A stretch of DNA of 33,277 nucleotides, taken from positions 1-33,277 of IMG/VR virus record IMGVR_UViG_3300021499_000007; one strand, given 5' to 3'. The stretch comes from a virus. A model generated the notes under the pieces. The model made no database searches, was not told the origin of the DNA, and worked only from the letters and a program-made list of their open reading frames with translations. Below, one piece after another: positions 3,182-30,608 of the stretch (the stretch's first letter is position 1; each line of letters opens with the position of its first letter). Made by a program: the position numbers and the translations under genes.

Positions 3182-3229
3182 GCATTTAAAAAATTTTTTT
3201 TGAATTTTTATTCTACCAAACAAACTAAT

Positions 3230-3284
3230 TTGGGAATAACTTGGGAACAACTTGGGAATAGCTTGGGAAATGTTTGGGAAATTA
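3230..3284. repeat. Five tandem 11-bp iterons
   Basis: Five back-to-back 11-mers start at 3230, 3241, 3252, 3263 and 3274. Each begins TTGGGAA; the first three end TAAC, CAAC, TAGC and the last two diverge (ATGT, ATTA). A period of 11 bp is about one helical turn, so a bound protein would array along one DNA face. An imperfect palindrome (ATTATTCCGGGAAATAAT) follows at ~3281..3298. Likely binding sites for the helicase wHTH, its paralog or the RHH protein. Confidence 0.85.
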
Positions 3285-3360: not shown

Positions 3361-3405
3361 CCGCCGATCGCCAAAGTTTCGCATTGTTATTTAGGACATT
3401 TTATA

Positions 3406-3440
3406 TATTTATTTATTAGAAGAATAATAATAAATAAATA
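3406..3440. repeat. AT-only inverted repeat, possible DNA-unwinding element
   Basis: TATTTATTTATTA (3406-3418) and its exact complement TAATAAATAAATA (3428-3440) flank a 9-nt spacer. The 13-bp arms contain no G or C. Beside the iterons this would suit origin melting. A cruciform or operator function is an alternative. Confidence 0.65.
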
Positions 3441-3488
3441 ATAAGAAGAAAAAATAAAAAAAATAATTCTACTAAAAAGCCTTTTTAT

Positions 3489-3516
3489 TTGAAAAACTAA
3501 ATAACTGTTTTATTTT
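3489..3516 (+). promoter_or_regulatory. Probable promoter of the glycyl-radical domain gene
   Basis: TTGAAA (3489-3494), 16-nt spacer, TATTTT (3511-3516), about 30 bp upstream of the start codon at 3546. The -10 box is weak, but the 16-nt spacer equals that of the other promoters in this genome. The ribosome binding site AAAAGGAGGAAGTT follows at ~3532-3545. Confidence 0.45.
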
Positions 3517-3545
3517 TTTCATAACTCTACTAAAAGGAGGAAGTT

Positions 3546-3755
3546 ATGTCTAACATAATACAGCTTCCTGTTCCTGTTAAAAGCAAAAGCAAGGTTGAAA
3601 CTAAAAGGGTTAAAGTTGTGCCTTGTGAAATCTATTCAAGAGTTGTCGGCTATTTTAGACCTGTTTCGCTATGGAATGTTGGCAAACAGCAGGAATTTAA
3701 AGAGAGAAAAACAATTGATCTTAATAAGGTTGCTCAATTTTGTAAACAGGCTTGA
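3546..3755 (+). CDS. Stand-alone NrdD-type glycyl-radical domain protein
   Basis: 69 aa, ATG at 3546 behind AAAAGGAGGAAG. The middle matches the C-terminal glycyl-radical segment of class III anaerobic ribonucleotide reductase: SRVVGYFRPV then WNVGKQQEFKERK. The radical glycine would be G35, followed by the conserved Asn-x-Gly-Lys. The catalytic ~600-residue barrel is absent. This parallels YfiD/GrcA, which replaces the oxygen-cleaved radical domain of pyruvate formate-lyase, so it may repair or supplement host NrdD and keep dNTP synthesis running. It is the only plus-strand gene in the left half of the map and has its own promoter. Alternative: remnant of an nrdD gene, but its tidy start and stop argue against decay. 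Confidence 0.8.
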   Translation: MSNIIQLPVPVKSKSKVETKRVKVVPCEIYSRVVGYFRPVSLWNVGKQQEFKERKTIDLNKVAQFCKQA

Positions 3756-5570: not shown

Positions 5571-5947
5571 TTTTCTTTTTCTTTCTGAATTTTTATAAAC
5601 TCATCAATCATAATAGCCATCTTTTGACAATCCTCAGTAGGAACATAAACTCTCTTAGTTATCACTTTAGGAATTTTTATAACTTTAGGTTTTTTATTTA
5701 TTAACTTAAGTAATTTATTTACTTTGGCTTGGTATTTTTGCTGCTGAACTTGCAGTTCTTTTACTAAATCCGCATTTACTTTTTTACAATCTGCCAGTTG
5801 CTTTTCTAAATAAAAAACTTGCTTTTCTAATTTATCGCTTTTCTGTTTTAAATAATAAAAATAGCTTCCAAATGCTCCTATCAACAAAACAATCAATCCA
5901 TAAAAAAGCCACTTATAAGTTCCTCTATAAACTAAGAATTGCCACAT
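5567..5947 (-). CDS. Inner-membrane spanin (Rz-like)
   Basis: 126 aa, ATG at 5947 behind TTGGAGGAATA, inside the end of the speD gene (23-nt overlap). One membrane helix near the N-terminus (~13-32), a periplasmic coiled coil (~33-85, with ADCKKVNADLVKELQ), then a proline/lysine linker and a C-terminal VPTEDCQKM...DEFI segment characteristic of Rz proteins. It acts with the lipoprotein next door in the last step of lysis. Confidence 0.85.
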   Translation of the reverse strand: MWQFLVYRGTYKWLFYGLIVLLIGAFGSYFYYLKQKSDKLEKQVFYLEKQLADCKKVNADLVKELQVQQQKYQAKVNKLLKLINKKPKVIKIPKVITKRVYVPTEDCQKMAIMIDEFIKIQKEKEK

Positions 5948-6317
5948 TATTCCTCCAAGGCAAAGCTAAATAATCAAACTTTATATCTTTACCTAAGACT
6001 GTTTTTAAAATATTCAAGACCTTTTTCTCTCTAAAATTTTTACAAGAAGATATCTCATATCTCATATACTTTTTCTCTGGCCAAGTATGAATATAAACAT
6101 GACTTTCTACTAAAACCATACCAGCAGATAATCCATATTCACCTTTAAATCCACTTCCACCAGGAACAGGAAAATGAGCAATCTGTAATGTATGCAGAAC
6201 TGGCGTCATATTAGCAGCCTCGATTGTTCTTATTAAAAGTAACTTCATAATTTCATCTGAAGATAAAAGCTCAGGAGGAACCTCATACACATTTACTAAT
6301 AGCACTTTCCCCTCCAT
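5925..6317 (-). CDS. speD: S-adenosylmethionine decarboxylase proenzyme (polyamine synthesis)
   Basis: 130 aa, the usual length of the prokaryotic class-1b enzyme. ATG at 6317 with AAAGGAGGAAC. The self-cleavage site is VESHVYIHTWPE: cut before Ser72, which becomes the pyruvoyl cofactor. Catalytic His77 and Cys92 are at +5 and +20 from it, exactly as in Thermotoga SpeD (Ser63, His68, Cys83). It makes decarboxylated AdoMet, the aminopropyl donor for the SpeE homolog at 11715..12572. The gene sits between the basic-protein genes and the spanins, overlapping Rz, so it is expressed late. Host-derived auxiliary gene; all key residues present. Confidence 0.93.
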   Translation of the reverse strand: MEGKVLLVNVYEVPPELLSSDEIMKLLLIRTIEAANMTPVLHTLQIAHFPVPGGSGFKGEYGLSAGMVLVESHVYIHTWPEKKYMRYEISSCKNFREKKVLNILKTVLGKDIKFDYLALPWRNNVAILSL

Positions 6318-11714: not shown

Positions 11715-12572
11715 TTAACCTCCTACACTAACTTTTAAATGTTTTATCCAGCAAAGCGAGTAAACATAAGCATCATAAGCATCTTCCTCAGCATTTCCCT
11801 TTTTAAGAGCTTCTCTTAAATCCTTGCTCCAGCTTGTAGCAGATAAAAACATCTGTTTATCAAATGCCTTTGTTTCTATATTATTTAGCCTTTCCCATTT
11901 AGGCTCTATTTTATCTACATTTGTTGCAAACCAAAACCCTTGTATCCCAGATAACATTTCTACTTTTAAAGGCACAACCCATTTAAACAGTTTTCTTAAT
12001 TTTGCCCCAATTACTGCCATAACAGGAAACATCAATGCACCACCAGACTGAACTACCAAAACACCATAAGGTTTTAAAATCCTTTTTATTTCTTCATAAT
12101 GTTCTAAAGAAAAAAGCTTGCTTAAACTTGGACTTGTAGGATCAGGATAATCAGCAAAAACTATATCGAATTTATGCTTTCTGCATTCCCTAACCCAATA
12201 ATAAGCATCTTTGTTATAAATTTTTACTCTTTCATCATTAAAAGCATAACAATTAAGAGCAGATACAAGAGGATGCTTTTTAGCAAGATCTGTTACATCT
12301 GGATCTATATCAACTACAATCACTTTTTCAGCAAATTTAAGAGCTTCTCTGCAAGCCAAACCATCTCCACCTCCTAAAATTAGCACCTTTTTAGGTTCTT
12401 TCCCTGCTATAACATAAGCAGAATGTATAGCCAATTCATGATACCTATATTCATCAGCAGAGTGAAATTGAGTGCAAAGATTTAAATCAAGCCTTAAATG
12501 CCCTGTTTCAGGATCATGGAAAAGCTCTATCAAATTGTATTGAGATTTAAGGTAAACTATTCTTTGCCACAT
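11715..12572 (-). CDS. speE: Spermidine synthase-type polyamine aminopropyltransferase
   Basis: 285 aa, ATG at 12572 with AGAGGAG. Hallmarks in order: ADEYRYHE (39-46), the AdoMet-type loop ILGGGDGLACREAL (65-78), VVDID (86-90), NKDAYYW (D122), and the catalytic-loop DYPDP (141-145) in place of the usual DSxDP. Uses decarboxylated AdoMet from the phage SpeD to add an aminopropyl group to a diamine or triamine. The DYPDP variant, as I recall it, resembles a broader SpeE subgroup, so the substrate (putrescine, spermidine, others) cannot be fixed. Embedded between two ejection-protein genes, hence late. Gene symbol by homology. Confidence 0.87.
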   Translation of the reverse strand: MWQRIVYLKSQYNLIELFHDPETGHLRLDLNLCTQFHSADEYRYHELAIHSAYVIAGKEPKKVLILGGGDGLACREALKFAEKVIVVDIDPDVTDLAKKHPLVSALNCYAFNDERVKIYNKDAYYWVRECRKHKFDIVFADYPDPTSPSLSKLFSLEHYEEIKRILKPYGVLVVQSGGALMFPVMAVIGAKLRKLFKWVVPLKVEMLSGIQGFWFATNVDKIEPKWERLNNIETKAFDKQMFLSATSWSKDLREALKKGNAEEDAYDAYVYSLCWIKHLKVSVGG

Positions 12573-18886: not shown

Positions 18887-20188
18887 TTAAACTTGTATAT
18901 TAGAACCTTGTTCAGTTCCAGTTGCAGGAGTAACATTAAGCAATCCACCTACAAGAACGCAATTATAAATTGGAGCATCTGTTAAGGAAGAATCAGCAGT
19001 AACAGAATATTCATTTGTAGGATCAAGAGTTTCTATTGTTGCATTTGTAATTAACCAATTCTTGGCTGAAATACTATTTCCAGCAAATTTAATAGCTTCG
19101 CTTGCACCATTACCTATAAATGTTCCACCTTCAATTCTTGCATAACTATAAGTATTCAAATATAAACCATAGCAATCTGCATAATTTGTTATAACAGAAT
19201 AATAAATTTTAATTGCATCTGATGAAGAAACACTAATAGGATTACCACCTGAATCAACAACTGTAGCATATAAGTATTCACCTGCTGCTCTTTCAACTCT
19301 ATTAAAATCAAAAAATTTCCAACCAATAGAATCAACAGGAATTCCAGATGCTATTTCATCACCACCTTCAGTTGTTCCAAGCTTTAAAGTTGCACCTGAT
19401 TCTTGAGCTGTATTAACATAAACAGCAATTGAAAGAAGCATATAAGGTTTATCAGAATAAGGCTGAAAACTTTCTGAAAAATTTGTATCATGTGAACTTA
19501 TTACCCCCCCAATACTTTTACAACCTGTAATAGTAGGTGATGCAGAACCCCAAATCACTATACCATGGCAGGAATTTACTGCCGCTGAAATTTCATTTAT
19601 AAATTTGCAATTAACAAGTCTGCATGTTTTATCAGTAGTTCCTTTAATACAACAAGCATGAACACTAGAAGTAATATCCCCTTTTCTTCTAATAGTTATA
19701 TCTCTCCATTCACTTTCAACAATTGAATCAAAAACAACACCATGAACATTAGAATCTGTCTGAACCGTAATATCAGCAGAAAAACCAATAATGTCAACAT
19801 AAGATTTGGCATTTATTTGAGCATCATCAACTATTTTACCTATTACAACTATACAATATCTATTAGTTTCTGAAGCATCTGTAATTGAATTTAATGCATC
19901 GCTTAATTTTGTATAGTCTCCTCCTTCACCAACAGTAAGAAGTTTACTATATTTACTTAAATTTAAATAATGCCAAACTCCATTAGCATAAATATAAAGT
20001 CTCTTTCCTGGAGTTTTAGCATTTGTATTTCTTACTACTCTTATATCAAAATCTGTCTCAGCTGGTAAAGTAGGAGAATAATTAGCAAATTCTTCACCAT
20101 AATCAGACTCATCATATCCTATTAGTCCAGATAAAATAAGATTAGGTTCTTTTTCTCTTGCATTTTGTGCATAAGCTGTTGGTCTCAT
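18887..20188 (-). CDS. Beta-helix protein, candidate head fiber
   Basis: 433 aa, ATG at 20188 with AAAAGGAGGTG, directly after the capsid gene. Residues ~84-230 begin VGEGGDYTKLSDALNSI, the start typical of pectate-lyase-like right-handed beta-helices, with repeated VVF/IVI/CK strands (SPTITGCKSIGG). A jelly-roll-like insert ~236-325 and a return to the helix (IEGGTFIGNG) follow. The place between capsid and neck genes, far from the tail fiber, suggests a capsid-surface fiber rather than a tailspike. No catalytic residues identified. Confidence 0.62.
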   Translation of the reverse strand: MRPTAYAQNAREKEPNLILSGLIGYDESDYGEEFANYSPTLPAETDFDIRVVRNTNAKTPGKRLYIYANGVWHYLNLSKYSKLLTVGEGGDYTKLSDALNSITDASETNRYCIVVIGKIVDDAQINAKSYVDIIGFSADITVQTDSNVHGVVFDSIVESEWRDITIRRKGDITSSVHACCIKGTTDKTCRLVNCKFINEISAAVNSCHGIVIWGSASPTITGCKSIGGVISSHDTNFSESFQPYSDKPYMLLSIAVYVNTAQESGATLKLGTTEGGDEIASGIPVDSIGWKFFDFNRVERAAGEYLYATVVDSGGNPISVSSSDAIKIYYSVITNYADCYGLYLNTYSYARIEGGTFIGNGASEAIKFAGNSISAKNWLITNATIETLDPTNEYSVTADSSLTDAPIYNCVLVGGLLNVTPATGTEQGSNIQV

Positions 20189-26255: not shown

Positions 26256-26283
26256 AATATAGACCAAAATCCAGAAATTACAA
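26256..26283 (-). promoter_or_regulatory. Probable late-operon promoter
   Basis: Minus strand: TTGTAA (26283..26278), 16-nt spacer, TATATT (26261..26256). The expected RNA start (~26249) falls on the first codons of the small terminase gene, implying leaderless mRNA or a different true start. Moderate match only; a phage-activated promoter could lie elsewhere in 26284..26400. Confidence 0.4.
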
Positions 26284-26403
26284 GCCTTTTCATTTCCTTT
26301 TAAATTTTTCAAAAAATTCCCAAAATTTTAAAATCTTCCCTTCTCTTTTTCCTCAGAATTCCTCTAACCAGATTTTATCACCATTTTTTAGGTAAAATAA
26401 AAC

Positions 26404-26431
26404 TTGACAAAAATAAAATTTCGTTTATATT
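26404..26431 (+). promoter_or_regulatory. Promoter of the plus-strand cassette
   Basis: TTGACA (26404-26409), 16-nt spacer, TATATT (26426-26431). The start codon at 26472 lies about 40 bp downstream behind AAAAAAAAGGAGGTGGG. Strong -35 and acceptable -10; arranged back to back with the late promoter in the 221-bp divergent gap 26251..26471. The rest of that gap shows only AT-rich runs. Confidence 0.75.
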
Positions 26432-26471
26432 TTATTTGTAGAAAATAAAAACAAAAAAAAGGAGGTGGGCT

Positions 26472-26855
26472 ATGTTAAAAATTAAAAAAATCTCTTTAGA
26501 AGAATTGAAAGAATTTCATAAAGAAAAATTTCTACCTGCATTTTTAGAAAATTTAATAATTATTGAGGATGAAAATAATTTAAAAGTCTTCCTCATCCCT
26601 GGGCAAGTATTCCTTACATTTGAAGCAAAAGAAATTTTTGAAAACGAAAGCCTTGACACTTTTCTAAAAACTTTTTCAATCGCCATTTTTCAGTTTCACA
26701 GAAAATGCAAGACAGAAGTTTCTATTGAAACCCCTAACTATCAAATCTCCGAATTATTTGGAGATTCGGAGACCGATTTTACAAATTGTAGATATTGTCA
26801 CCTTTGCAACTGTTATCATTATTACTCTTCAACTAATCTAAATTGGCATGATTAA
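26472..26855 (+). CDS. Hypothetical protein with C-terminal Cys/His cluster
   Basis: 127 aa, ATG at 26472 with a perfect AAGGAGGTG. Alpha/beta body with a conserved-looking FLIPGQVFLTFEAKEIFE section. The C-terminus carries CRYCHLCNCYHYY (CxxCxxCxC plus His), suggesting zinc binding. First gene of the plus-strand cassette. No family recognised. Candidate anti-defence or host-control protein by setting. Confidence 0.75.
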   Translation: MLKIKKISLEELKEFHKEKFLPAFLENLIIIEDENNLKVFLIPGQVFLTFEAKEIFENESLDTFLKTFSIAIFQFHRKCKTEVSIETPNYQISELFGDSETDFTNCRYCHLCNCYHYYSSTNLNWHD

Positions 26856-26878
26856 AATAAAAAAAAGGAGGTGCTATT

Positions 26879-27166
26879 ATGAAATTAAAAGAATTAGAAA
26901 AAACCATTTTAAAAGAACTTAACTCAAATCTAAAAAAATTTGCGACTTTAGATGATGCTATCATTGAAACAATAGAAAATCTTAGTGAAGATTATTATTT
27001 TCTTGATCATTATACTTCATGGCCAGATGGTCGTGGAGGAGATATTCTTTCTGCTCATTTTAAAATTGATAATAAATATTATTGTTGCATGTTTTATGAT
27101 AAAAACTTAATAAACTTAAAAGAAATCACAAAAGAAATTTATGAAAAAGATAATCCTTTTAATTAA
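26879..27166 (+). CDS. Hypothetical acidic protein
   Basis: 95 aa, ATG at 26879 behind AAAAAGGAGGTGC. N-terminal helices (KLKELEKTILKELNSNLKK), then beta-rich middle (YYFLDHYTSWPDGRGGDILSA) with CC pair near residue 73, and an acidic C-terminus. Second gene of the cassette. The WPDGRGG loop is distinctive, but no family is recognised. Confidence 0.75.
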   Translation: MKLKELEKTILKELNSNLKKFATLDDAIIETIENLSEDYYFLDHYTSWPDGRGGDILSAHFKIDNKYYCCMFYDKNLINLKEITKEIYEKDNPFN

Positions 27167-27188
27167 AAATAAAAATAGGAGGTGGGTT

Positions 27189-27362
27189 ATGTGGGAAATT
27201 TTAAGGCAAAACTACATTATTTTAGAAGCAAAAAAGTTTAAAAAATTCAATGAGAACTATAAAGAATTTTTGTCTATTTTTTTCAAAATCGAAAAACATG
27301 AAATCTTCGATCACCTTCTCATCCTCAAAAAAAGAGAAAAATATCTTGGAATTCAAAAATAA
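27189..27362 (+). CDS. Small basic hypothetical protein
   Basis: 57 aa. ATG at 27189 is chosen because AATAGGAGGTGGG precedes it; an upstream in-frame ATG at 27141 lies within the previous gene. Beta-alpha pattern (WEILRQNYIILEAKKFKKF, HEIFDHLLILKK), Lys-rich. Function unknown. Third gene of the cassette. Confidence 0.7.
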   Translation: MWEILRQNYIILEAKKFKKFNENYKEFLSIFFKIEKHEIFDHLLILKKREKYLGIQK

Positions 27363-27381
27363 TAAAAAGGAGGAGGAAGGC

Positions 27382-27600
27382 ATGGCTTATCCAAGATTAA
27401 ATCAAAGAGTTAAAGCTATAATTACATGGGGAAGGTCTAAACTAAATGGTATGCATATCGGGAAAATAATTTCTAAACCTTTCAGAGCAAGGAGTGGTGC
27501 AGTTCTTGCTTATATGGATTGCGAGGTTTGTGGAAAGAAACATTGCATCCCTTGGACAAGCGATACAAGAATTATTCGCTTTGAGGCTTTGGAGGATTAA
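27382..27600 (+). CDS. Small CxxC-containing protein, possible beta-barrel nucleic-acid binder
   Basis: 72 aa. ATG at 27382 behind AAAAAGGAGGAGG; longer in-frame reading upstream overlaps the prior gene and lacks a site. Beta-rich with basic loops (KAIITWGRSKLNG, KIISKPFRARSGAVLAYMD) and DCEVCGKKHC near residue 46, a CxxC..HC half zinc site. Ends convergently with the minus-strand gene at 27572 (29-bp overlap). No family recognised. Confidence 0.72.
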   Translation: MAYPRLNQRVKAIITWGRSKLNGMHIGKIISKPFRARSGAVLAYMDCEVCGKKHCIPWTSDTRIIRFEALED

Positions 27601-27856
27601 TTATCCTCATTTTGCTGTTTCTTTCTTCCATATAGGCAGCACGAAGCTTTGCTTTCCTCCAAGCCTCTATATCAGCAACATGAATTACAGGGCGGCGAAA
27701 TTTTTCGCTTGTCTCTAAAAAAAATATAGGTATGCCCCAATTTCTCCAATTTCTTACTAAAGTGTTTTCAGGAATTCCTAAATACCGTGATATATCCCTC
27801 CAACCTACTATAAACCCACTCCCTTTTAATTTTTCCGTAATTTTAGGATAGCTCAT
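27572..27856 (-). CDS. Helix-turn-helix DNA-binding protein (AlpA/excisionase-like)
   Basis: 94 aa, ATG at 27856 with GGAGGTG; it overlaps the resolvase stop. GWRDISRYLGIPENTLVRNW forms the HTH, then IPIFFLE and RRPVIHVADIEAWRKA make the wing and recognition tail typical of excisionase/MerR/AlpA-like factors and some small terminases. Its position as last gene of the early block, near the late promoter, makes a late-gene activator or terminase partner possible. Confidence 0.75.
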   Translation of the reverse strand: MSYPKITEKLKGSGFIVGWRDISRYLGIPENTLVRNWRNWGIPIFFLETSEKFRRPVIHVADIEAWRKAKLRAAYMEERNSKMRIINPPKPQSE

Positions 27857-28316
27857 TTTTAATTAAACACCTCCTCATATATTCTGCTATTAAAAGTGCG
27901 TCCGATTTTCCATCACATTTTCCAATCTCACTTGCAAGATAAGGAAACAAGGCTTTAGCTCTTTCCAAAGATAATTGTTTTATTTCTTTTCTTGTTTTCT
28001 TTTTATGGCTTCCTAACATTTCTTTTTGCCATCTCTTAGGATGTATTTCTTCATAAGATATTCTTAAAGCTTTCAAAATCCCTAAAACTATTCCATATTG
28101 AACTCCTAATCTAAATGTAGAACAAACCCCTTGCCGAGGAAAAGGTTGCTGCTTTTCTACTCCTACTATAATTGTGTCTCTTTTCTTTTTTCTCTCGAAC
28201 AATTCAATAAGCTCTGTAAAGTCCTCAGGCATTTTATAAACTTCTGCCTGAAGTGTCTTAATATCTATAAATGCTATTCCGCCCTTTTTTCCTATATCTA
28301 TCCCTGCTATTATCAT
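27843..28316 (-). CDS. RuvC-like Holliday junction resolvase
   Basis: 157 aa, ATG at 28316 overlapping the upstream TGA. RNase-H fold acidic residues: D7 in AGIDIG, E54 in VGVEKQ, D135 and D139 in GKCDGKSDALLIAEY. PFPRQGV and IHPKRWQKEML are typical of phage RuvC-type nucleases. Resolves recombination or packaging intermediates; the only clear recombination enzyme besides the RecB/Cas4-like nuclease. Confidence 0.85.
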   Translation of the reverse strand: MIIAGIDIGKKGGIAFIDIKTLQAEVYKMPEDFTELIELFERKKKRDTIIVGVEKQQPFPRQGVCSTFRLGVQYGIVLGILKALRISYEEIHPKRWQKEMLGSHKKKTRKEIKQLSLERAKALFPYLASEIGKCDGKSDALLIAEYMRRCLIKNELS

Positions 28317-28699
28317 TTTTCCTTCATTAAATACAAACGAATAAGCATTTTTGCTCTTACATTTGCTTCTAATTCATCAACTTCTATATAATGCTTTCCT
28401 TCTCTTCTTTTCCAAAAATCAGTATAACACTCCCACCAATTCTCTTCTTTTAAAGAAGCAGCAAATTTAGGCAAATGCTCTCCCAATTCTCTTACAGTAG
28501 GAGCTTTGATTCTCTCTAAGTTGTTTATTTTTAAATCATGCTCTATATCTTCATTTGTCATTTTCTCAAAAAATGAAAGAAAAACTTTTCCTTGCCTATC
28601 AATAGTCCAATAATAACCCCCTCCACTTTGAGGATACCCTAAATCCTTTAACTTTTTGCAAAGCTCTAAAGAAGGAACCTCTTTTTTTAAATCAAACAT
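28313..28699 (-). CDS. Conserved-looking phage hypothetical protein
   Basis: 128 aa, ATG at 28699 with AAGGAGAGA. Starts FDLKKEVPSLELCKKLKDLG and has SGGGYYWTIDRQGKV, a layout I recall from many phage and prophage proteins of unknown function ('...LKELGYPQ...YW'). KAPTVRELGEHLPKF and C-terminal helices follow. Role unknown. Confidence 0.75.
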   Translation of the reverse strand: MFDLKKEVPSLELCKKLKDLGYPQSGGGYYWTIDRQGKVFLSFFEKMTNEDIEHDLKINNLERIKAPTVRELGEHLPKFAASLKEENWWECYTDFWKRREGKHYIEVDELEANVRAKMLIRLYLMKEK

Positions 28700-28702
28700 T
28701 GC

Positions 28703-28999
28703 CTATCTCTCCTTAATTCTGTAATAACAAATCAAAACTACAATTGTCCCTACTAAAACAAAACATTCCAAAGAACAAAAAATGTTTCCATAAATTTTTT
28801 CAAATCCTATTTTAAATCCAATCAGAACAAAAACCACAAGACAAAAAGTTGCATTAAGCCAAACAGCTCCTTGATAAATTAAACTAATGTCTTTTGCTGT
28901 CTTTCTTTTTATAAGAAGCCTTATCTGAGCAATTGCAAAACTTCCTGTAATTATCGATAAAACAAGTATCAAACTTTGCAAGTAAGGTAATGCTTCCAT
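28703..28999 (-). CDS. SemiSWEET/PQ-loop-like small membrane protein
   Basis: 98 aa, ATG at 28999 with AAGGAGG. Three hydrophobic segments (~8-30, 44-64, 72-92). The features match SemiSWEET sugar transporters: TM1 ending AIAQIRLLI (usual PQ replaced by AQ), then KTAKDISL, Trp47 in TM2 and Asn72 at the start of TM3, which line the pocket in that family. It would work as a dimer moving sugars or similar small solutes across the inner membrane. A holin-like role is an alternative. Confidence 0.6.
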   Translation of the reverse strand: MEALPYLQSLILVLSIITGSFAIAQIRLLIKRKTAKDISLIYQGAVWLNATFCLVVFVLIGFKIGFEKIYGNIFCSLECFVLVGTIVVLICYYRIKER

Positions 29000-29011
29000 C
29001 TTTCCTCCTTA

Positions 29012-29209
29012 CTATGTTTTTGTATTCTTTTCTTCATATAACATTTCAATAAGCATTATCATTGCTTTTAAAGCTTTTTCGCAAAAAGTTTTCTTCTTTA
29101 TCGCTTCATGCCAAGAACTCAAAATAGTATCCCATGCTTTCTGCGGATCTTTTTCTTTTAATTCTTTTTTCAGCTTTTCAAGTTCTTTTAATGCCTTGCA
29201 CTCTTTCAT
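29012..29209 (-). CDS. Small helical hypothetical protein
   Basis: 65 aa. ATG at 29209 is chosen, one base after the previous stop (TAAAATG), rather than an in-frame GTG at 29230 inside that gene. Charged helices (KALKELEKLKKELKEKDPQ, then WDTILSSWHEAIKKK), with two Cys. Unassigned. Confidence 0.7.
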   Translation of the reverse strand: MKECKALKELEKLKKELKEKDPQKAWDTILSSWHEAIKKKTFCEKALKAMIMLIEMLYEEKNTKT

Positions 29210-29210
29210 T

Positions 29211-29498
29211 TTATTGAACTGCTGTTTCACTGCTTAAGGTTTCTATTAGAAAATCTACATCTTCTCTTAATAAAAGAACCTGAACATAACCATTCGATAT
29301 CCAACAATCTGTTTGCTCATACTTTCCCCAGTTTTCCTTTGCTGCCTTTAACTGCTGCACAAAATACTCTTTCTCTGCTTCATTCACTAAATAAATCGTC
29401 ACTCTCCCTAAACCATAAGTAAGAGCATAACTTTCATCCTGCGTCGACTTCCTTATTTTCCACCTATCGTTTTGTCCTATTAACATACTTTGCATCAT
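29211..29498 (-). CDS. Hypothetical protein, alpha/beta
   Basis: 95 aa, ATG at 29498 with GGAGGTG. Pattern: WKIRKSTQDES, YGLGRVTIYLV, AEKEYFVQQLKAAKENW helix, and YVQVLLLREDVDFLIETL. This small beta-alpha-beta unit is unassigned. Coupled to the next gene. Confidence 0.72.
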   Translation of the reverse strand: MMQSMLIGQNDRWKIRKSTQDESYALTYGLGRVTIYLVNEAEKEYFVQQLKAAKENWGKYEQTDCWISNGYVQVLLLREDVDFLIETLSSETAVQ

Positions 29499-29514
29499 TT
29501 TTACACCTCCTATT

Positions 29515-29712
29515 CTATTTTTCTATTTCATTTTGTTTCTCATATAACAAAAGCACTGCTTTTAGAAGATACCGCATAATTCTTTCTAAACTACGCAATG
29601 TTAAAAAATATAAATATCCATGCTTTGTATATTTATCCGTAAAGTAATAATCATACATAAAAGCTATTTCATTCATTACTTCTTCCAATTCTTCTCTCTT
29701 TTTATCCTCCAT
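29515..29712 (-). CDS. Small helical hypothetical protein
   Basis: 65 aa. ATG at 29712 behind GCAGGAGGTATAAAG is chosen over an in-frame start 54 nt upstream inside the nuclease gene. Acidic first helix (KREELEEVMNEIAFMYDYYF), second helix (SLERIMRYLLKAVLLLY). No family recognised. Confidence 0.72.
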   Translation of the reverse strand: MEDKKREELEEVMNEIAFMYDYYFTDKYTKHGYLYFLTLRSLERIMRYLLKAVLLLYEKQNEIEK

Positions 29713-29714
29713 CT

Positions 29715-30608
29715 TTATACCTCCTGCATTTTTATTTTTTCTTTTAATGCTTGCCATTGCGGACAAAAATCAGCTACCTCGCAAAAATAAAGACAACCAA
29801 TTGGAATAATCTCTTTCACTATTTCTTTCTTTACTTTTTTAGCATATTCTTCAGCTTTCTTTTCATCTGAAAATCTTTTATTCCCCACTACATAATTTAC
29901 TCTTAACATCATATCTTCCTCGCTACAAATAAATTGCTCTTCATGCAATTTTAATCTTTGTATAATAAATTCTTCTACTTTGCTATCTTCCCAAATAGGA
30001 TACTCCACTATCACTAAAGGTGAAGGAAGCTTGCTTCTCAATGGTGAAAAATCTCTTAACAGGAATACATTCTTAATTGCTTTAACTTTAATTCCTTCCT
30101 TTTTCTCAAGCATATATCTATAAATTTGCAATTGCTTTTCATATTTATCAAACTTTTCATGTGTTATTACAAATTCAGAAGTCACTTTATAGTCATAAAT
30201 TATCTCATCCTCAAACAAATCAAATTCTCCTACTATTTTCCAATTACCTATTTCAAGTTCCATTTGCTTTTTCTCCTTTAAACGCAATAATCTTTTTGCT
30301 TGTAATAAAAGCATTTTTTTATCATTAAGCATCTCAGCCTTTTTCATCTCTTCTAAAATCTCTTGAAACTCTTTTAGCTCAAGCAATGAGTGAATCATTA
30401 TTCCCATTATTTGATAATGAAAGTTAGTTGTTCTTCTACTTATATTTTCATAATTCTCTCTTAGAAGTTTTCTTTTAAGAGGAGAACCTATTAGCTCTGT
30501 CACCCTGATCGTATTTTCAGGCAGCAGTTTATATTCTTTCGTATAAATTGAAAAAAGGCTTGTCGGTATTAGTTCTTCTGTAAAATCTTTTATAACTGTT
30601 ATTTTCAT
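29715..30608 (-). CDS. RecB/Cas4-like PD-(D/E)XK nuclease
   Basis: 297 aa, ATG at 30608 with AGGAGG. Core nuclease: HSLLE (His73), GEFDLFEDE with D130, DYK (D139-K141), then QLQIYRYML (~159-167). C-terminal CLYFCEVADFC (three Cys, ~272-282) resembles the Cas4/AddB iron-sulfur site, but the usual N-terminal fourth Cys is absent (VTELIGSPLKRKLL). Likely a 5' or 3' exonuclease in replication or recombination. No CRISPR neighbours are present. Confidence 0.78.
   Translation of the reverse strand: MKITVIKDFTEELIPTSLFSIYTKEYKLLPENTIRVTELIGSPLKRKLLRENYENISRRTTNFHYQIMGIMIHSLLELKEFQEILEEMKKAEMLNDKKMLLLQAKRLLRLKEKKQMELEIGNWKIVGEFDLFEDEIIYDYKVTSEFVITHEKFDKYEKQLQIYRYMLEKKEGIKVKAIKNVFLLRDFSPLRSKLPSPLVIVEYPIWEDSKVEEFIIQRLKLHEEQFICSEEDMMLRVNYVVGNKRFSDEKKAEEYAKKVKKEIVKEIIPIGCLYFCEVADFCPQWQALKEKIKMQEV

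Follow-up and report, generated by a model that had tools for sequence, protein, structure and literature searches.

A phage-encoded stand-alone NrdD glycyl-radical domain related to the small subunits of a split class III ribonucleotide reductase in Thermodesulfobacteria

A 33.3-kb virus record (hereafter the window, the whole stretch of DNA that was analysed), in which family profile searches identify an SU10-type portal and a terminase, carries a 69-amino-acid gene for a stand-alone NrdD-type glycyl-radical subunit (3546..3755, + strand). On balance, we favour the view that its product is the small subunit that bears the radical in a split class III ribonucleotide reductase, pairing with a large NrdD subunit supplied by the host, being activated by host NrdG and thereby sustaining dNTP supply. 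Four lines of evidence support this reading: homology, an intact radical motif, selection at the protein level and the presence of a split NrdD in the likely host class.

A 69-amino-acid gene encoding only the radical loop

The gene runs from ATG to TGA and is preceded by a Shine-Dalgarno sequence, AGGAGG, that can be read directly at 3535..3540 (+). Its product matches Pfam family PF13597 (NRDD) with 35.5 bits (E 6e-9; cut-off 26.2 bits), the match being confined to positions 533-560 of 562, that is, to the last ~28 positions of the profile, which make up the radical loop; TIGR02487 is matched at positions 551-580 of 581. The corresponding glycyl-radical core, residues 27-55, is encoded by 3624..3710 (+), and the GGC codon at 3648..3650 (+) specifies Gly35, the predicted radical glycine, by homology between the RVVGY of the phage protein and the RIVGY loop of T. 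maritima NrdD (PDB entry 4coi). Both the RVxGY radical-glycine motif and the downstream NxGKxxEF motif are present. Across 26 stand-alone relatives, Gly35, E28, S31, R32, Y36, P39, W43, G46, K47, E50, F51 and R54 are invariant, and 13 distinct positions, among them Gly35 and the RVVGY...NxGKQxEF frame, show little or no variation. The initial annotation, which described a lone NrdD radical loop with Gly35 as its radical site, is thus borne out.

Structural comparisons were less informative. A phmmer search of PDB with the single protein gave no match, and a profile search reached 4coi and 4u3e only weakly (E about 0.6). The AlphaFold model is mediocre (pLDDT 72, pTM 0.40), and the single Foldseek match obtained with it, to YfiD (6owr), is non-significant (E 6.7).

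Profile searches of the window found no second NrdD match, and the ten-stranded barrel with catalytic cysteines that characterises a complete NrdD is absent both from the 69-amino-acid protein and from the record as a whole. The gene might in principle be the decaying remnant of a former full-length nrdD, the circumstance that was expected to undermine the initial annotation, and a related phage contig does encode a complete NrdD together with an nrdG-like protein. We regard decay as very improbable indeed, however: the gene has its own start codon and ribosome site, no nrdD remnant accompanies it, and its product is closer to natural small subunits than to the tail of the NrdD on that contig. 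The nature of the substitutions seen in a sibling phage (G001, 27.7 kb), which aligns to 3380-30509 of the window with 92-98% identical DNA, argues in the same direction. The two copies of the gene differ at 10 codons, eight synonymously and two non-synonymously (pN/pS 0.066; binomial p 1e-4), and because eight of the ten changes are synonymous (pN/pS 0.07) the ORF is a real gene under purifying selection. Given the lack of other NrdD sequence and the low pN/pS, we reject a pseudogene. Related phages that share the portal lack the gene, which suggests that it is dispensable in this lineage, although many of the contigs concerned are fragments. A separate difference between the siblings lies in a putative virion gene, where an 81-nt tandem repeat is present in 4.7 copies in G001 (L119, 16518-16901) but is not expanded in the window (about 19516-19577).

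From the left end of the window to about 26.4 kb, this is the sole likely gene on the + strand, in agreement with its earlier description as isolated. The leader at 3380..3545 (+) may hold a promoter or another regulatory element: the ~160 nt that immediately precede the gene are almost unchanged in G001, which is stronger support for regulation than the weak, AT-rich promoter-like match at 3489-3516 (9/12 bases). The promoter that the initial annotation assigned to the gene is only suggested. Similarly, the proposed position beside an origin finds a counterpart in four 11-nt iteron-like direct repeats with a TTGGGAA core at 3227..3281, which adjoin the gene and neighbour an AAA_25 ATPase gene (1563-2960, - strand), and which suggest a possible replication origin.

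Other features of the window were also seen. At 3181-3154 (- strand) the sequence matches a sigma-70-type promoter perfectly (TTGACA-16-TATAAT with TG) and points leftwards to the replication-gene block. A small winged-helix protein (1234-1557, - strand) looks like a duplicate of the winged helix at the C-terminus of the neighbouring AAA_25 ATPase. The phage also encodes S-adenosylmethionine decarboxylase (5925-6317) and a protein resembling spermidine synthase (11715-12572), both on the - strand, which suggest polyamine synthesis.

Split NrdD in Thermodesulfobacteria and the probable host

Among bacterial genomes, those of the class Thermodesulfobacteria hold the nearest relatives of the 69-amino-acid protein, as short ORFs that stand alone. 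At these loci a large NrdD ORF ends soon after the zinc-site motif (CPxHGY...CPYPHT) and is followed by the short ORF and sometimes then by nrdG. NrdD matches occur in 38 of 41 genomes of the class and, on our reading of the matches, 36 of these 38 encode a separate small radical domain; of the other two, one (G022) has a fused NrdD only and one an N-terminal fragment only. The small-subunit genes encode 55-80 amino acids and each has its own ribosome site, whilst the junctions with the large-subunit genes use each of the three relative frames, have either TAA or TAG as the stop, vary in spacing and sometimes overlap. Large and small subunits are therefore encoded by truly separate genes, and the varying frames and stops rule out stop-codon read-through between them. 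The large subunits retain the YC.G and MCC cysteine motifs that are invariant in fused NrdDs too, and align to residues 100-613 of 4coi; the small-subunit profile aligns to residues 615-634, a weak match (E 0.63), so that the two chains, large then small, appear to tile T. maritima NrdD. NrdG2 is over the cut-off in 36 of the 41 genomes. A PF02867-type reductase is found in 38 of the 41, and since most members of the class thus have a second reductase, class III activity may not be limiting.

Comparison with host NrdD, as proposed in the initial annotation, places the phage protein among the Thermodesulfobacteria small subunits, which it resembles in domain, size, motif and separate gene, with up to 78% identity across the core. 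The host copies differ in following a large-subunit gene in an operon, whereas the phage copy has no such partner gene and is extended at its N-terminus. A cognate large subunit without a radical loop is present in the probable host class; the phage record has none. Because NrdD is natively two polypeptides in that class, the phage protein is first of all a homologue of a normal subunit.

Split NrdD layouts are also found in Cereibacter, in one Anaerolineae genome, in one Victivallaceae genome and on Cupriavidus necator plasmid pHG1. In C. necator H16 the pHG1 genes, encoding proteins of 676 and 66 amino acids followed by nrdG, have the same two-gene layout, but the small protein is distant in sequence from the phage protein (WTRVMGYHRPV) and belongs to a bacterial operon. 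NrdDG is reported to be essential for full denitrification in this strain (PMC2864759, citing Siedow 1999), which makes it very probable that a split NrdD is functional in vivo. The Victivallaceae MAG (G021, locus L057) combines fused and split forms of NrdD with an extra, lone radical-loop gene of 41 amino acids.

Gene similarity and MAG binning suggest that the phage probably infects heat-loving anaerobic Thermodesulfobacteria. In a tree of the small proteins, which rests on 43 columns only and is moderately supported (94/81 and 97/86; AU p 0.06 for a host-only clade), the phage copy lies inside the Thermodesulfobacteria small subunits together with other mobile copies. A Thermodesulfobacteria MAG (G014) that itself has a split NrdD holds phage contigs which share 76-88% identity with the window across most of the structural genes. 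In other MAGs, extra unlinked small-subunit genes sit on mobile contigs (L092, L090/L091), that of L092 adjoining tail, baseplate and SSB genes. No CRISPR-like repeat array emerged when the host loci around weaker DNA matches were scanned for simple repeats. The same MAG, G014, includes a 47.8-kb phage-like contig (C1) that has early genes in common with the window; at 26259-29763 (L221, L222) it encodes a radical-SAM nrdG-like protein and the complete NrdD mentioned above, of 995 amino acids, with no lone loop.

Lone loops in other viruses, plasmids and Patescibacteria

Similar short genes, a search for which had been proposed, proved to be present in Thermodesulfobacteria, in Patescibacteria and in many viruses. 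A profile scan of viral contigs identified 234 relatives; the best 80 include 68 stand-alone ORFs (about 41-177 amino acids, with a few duplicates) and 11 fused NrdDs. When long contigs with a lone loop were considered (30-204 kb, n=33), 32 had no other NrdD match, the remaining one (G090) also encoding a large subunit. Three further viruses (G002, G005 and G006) likewise carry both parts as separate genes, bringing to four the viruses other than ours with this arrangement; in G006 the two are about 17 kb apart. With three queries, 50,697 deposited phage records yielded the ANMV-1 virus as the only stand-alone case, matches in Bacteriophage sp. and Oceanotoga appearing to sit in longer NrdD genes. 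The ANMV-1 protein (AJP62049, 'anaerobic ribonucleoside triphosphate reductase') is, like ours, a virus-encoded stand-alone NrdD radical domain, but is of a longer form with an added CHDCG..KCxxCF segment. Lone loops thus come in two forms, a short one, as here, and one of about 90-130 amino acids with an extra cysteine-rich part, found in ANMV-1 and in Patescibacteria. Lone loops are not confined to viruses and chromosomes: plasmid pAt1 of Allochromatium tepidum has a lone 61-amino-acid NrdD radical-loop gene (L077, 2460-2645) with no nrdD adjoining.

Beside lone viral loops lie genes typical of phages (for terminases, head proteins, primase and lysis), and no partner recurs constantly among the neighbours inspected. 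Such varied surroundings would suit a domain recruited for another job, as a regulator or as a cofactor of a different glycyl-radical enzyme. This we consider improbable, given that conservation falls on precisely the residues that typify NrdD radical loops. The 69-amino-acid protein matches NrdD families only, with no match to a glycyl-radical domain of the pyruvate formate-lyase type.

Pyruvate formate-lyase provides a functional parallel. YfiD/GrcA and phage T4 Y06I are small, free glycyl-radical domains that complete a larger enzyme, Y06I being phage-encoded (PMC8683613); they differ from our protein in enzyme family and activase, and in that the enzyme patched by Y06I is a fused one cleaved by oxygen. 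Pyruvate formate-lyase is the only enzyme with validated spare-part radical domains (YfiD and T4 Y06I), with other glycyl-radical enzymes being an open question, although the authors suggest that these may have them too (PMC8683613). The initial annotation cast our protein in this part, as a replacement for a damaged radical domain of host NrdD. The proposal was right about the lone, intact domain; it took for granted that host NrdD carries a radical domain of its own, and in the likely hosts the domain is separate, so there would be no fused enzyme to patch. That 32 of the 33 long viral contigs have a lone domain without a large subunit does speak for a spare part, as does the situation in Patescibacteria, where all six genomes examined keep an intact NrdD as well as a separate loop gene. 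For the phage protein, though, a role mainly in the rescue of oxygen-cleaved NrdD, and not as a standing subunit, seems to us unlikely. The patescibacterial pairing of intact NrdD and lone loop fits better, as judged from gene content, with a true spare-part arrangement. At the patescibacterial loci (L033, L038, L042, L047, L051 and L074) the loop gene, which encodes a ~95-amino-acid protein with a CHDC segment and an NrdD radical loop, is usually directly downstream of the intact NrdD.

Proposed role and implications

How might a separately encoded small subunit act? The host assignment and the scheme that follows, from docking and activation to an advantage for the phage and any role in repair, are inferred. 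During infection the phage protein would dock into the barrel of the host large NrdD subunit, which would contribute catalytic cysteines, an ATP-cone and a zinc site whilst lacking a radical glycine. Gly35 would then receive its radical through host NrdG, and the assembled enzyme would make dNTPs for phage replication. NrdG is known to generate the glycyl radical, and oxygen cleaves NrdD at that site (PMC3019208). Since the subunit is separate, the phage copy could add to, outcompete or replace host copies, including those cleaved by oxygen at the radical glycine. In P. copri NrdD, dATP renders the glycyl-radical domain mobile (PMC11226230), which makes exchange of a separate radical domain plausible. 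Phages that encode complete nrdD and nrdG (T4, for example) likewise provide class III reductase function; here, the radical loop alone is supplied.

The small protein could in principle be a decoy or inhibitor instead, occupying NrdD or NrdG and blocking or redirecting host dNTP synthesis. Stand-alone fragments can be dominant negatives, and copies of the phage lineage have drifted away from those of hosts (PVSxWN versus PVQNWN). But a decoy would have no need of the radical glycine and the core residues, all of which are under purifying selection, and phages usually need more dNTPs; we hold this reading to be improbable, slightly more so than recruitment for another job.

In the open-access literature that was searched, we found no paper describing a split NrdD or radical loops of this enzyme encoded on their own. 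Some of the small ORFs are already named nrdD in NCBI annotation, so they are known as sequences whilst their meaning has apparently gone undiscussed. As tiny genes that often go unannotated and hardly occur in cultured phages, lone loops are likely to have been overlooked.

More broadly, we would give even chances to the proposition that lone NrdD loops are widespread viral and cellular exchangeable radical carriers, which would serve a split NrdD as a subunit and a fused one as a spare part. If this is true, a phage gene of ~50 codons would provide host dNTP synthesis with its oxygen-labile component, and the first spare part outside pyruvate formate-lyase would be in hand. The split NrdD found across a bacterial class offers a natural two-component system for a direct test of the spare-part question, and the lone loops of dozens of uncultivated viruses suggest a very cheap means by which phages may influence anaerobic dNTP synthesis.
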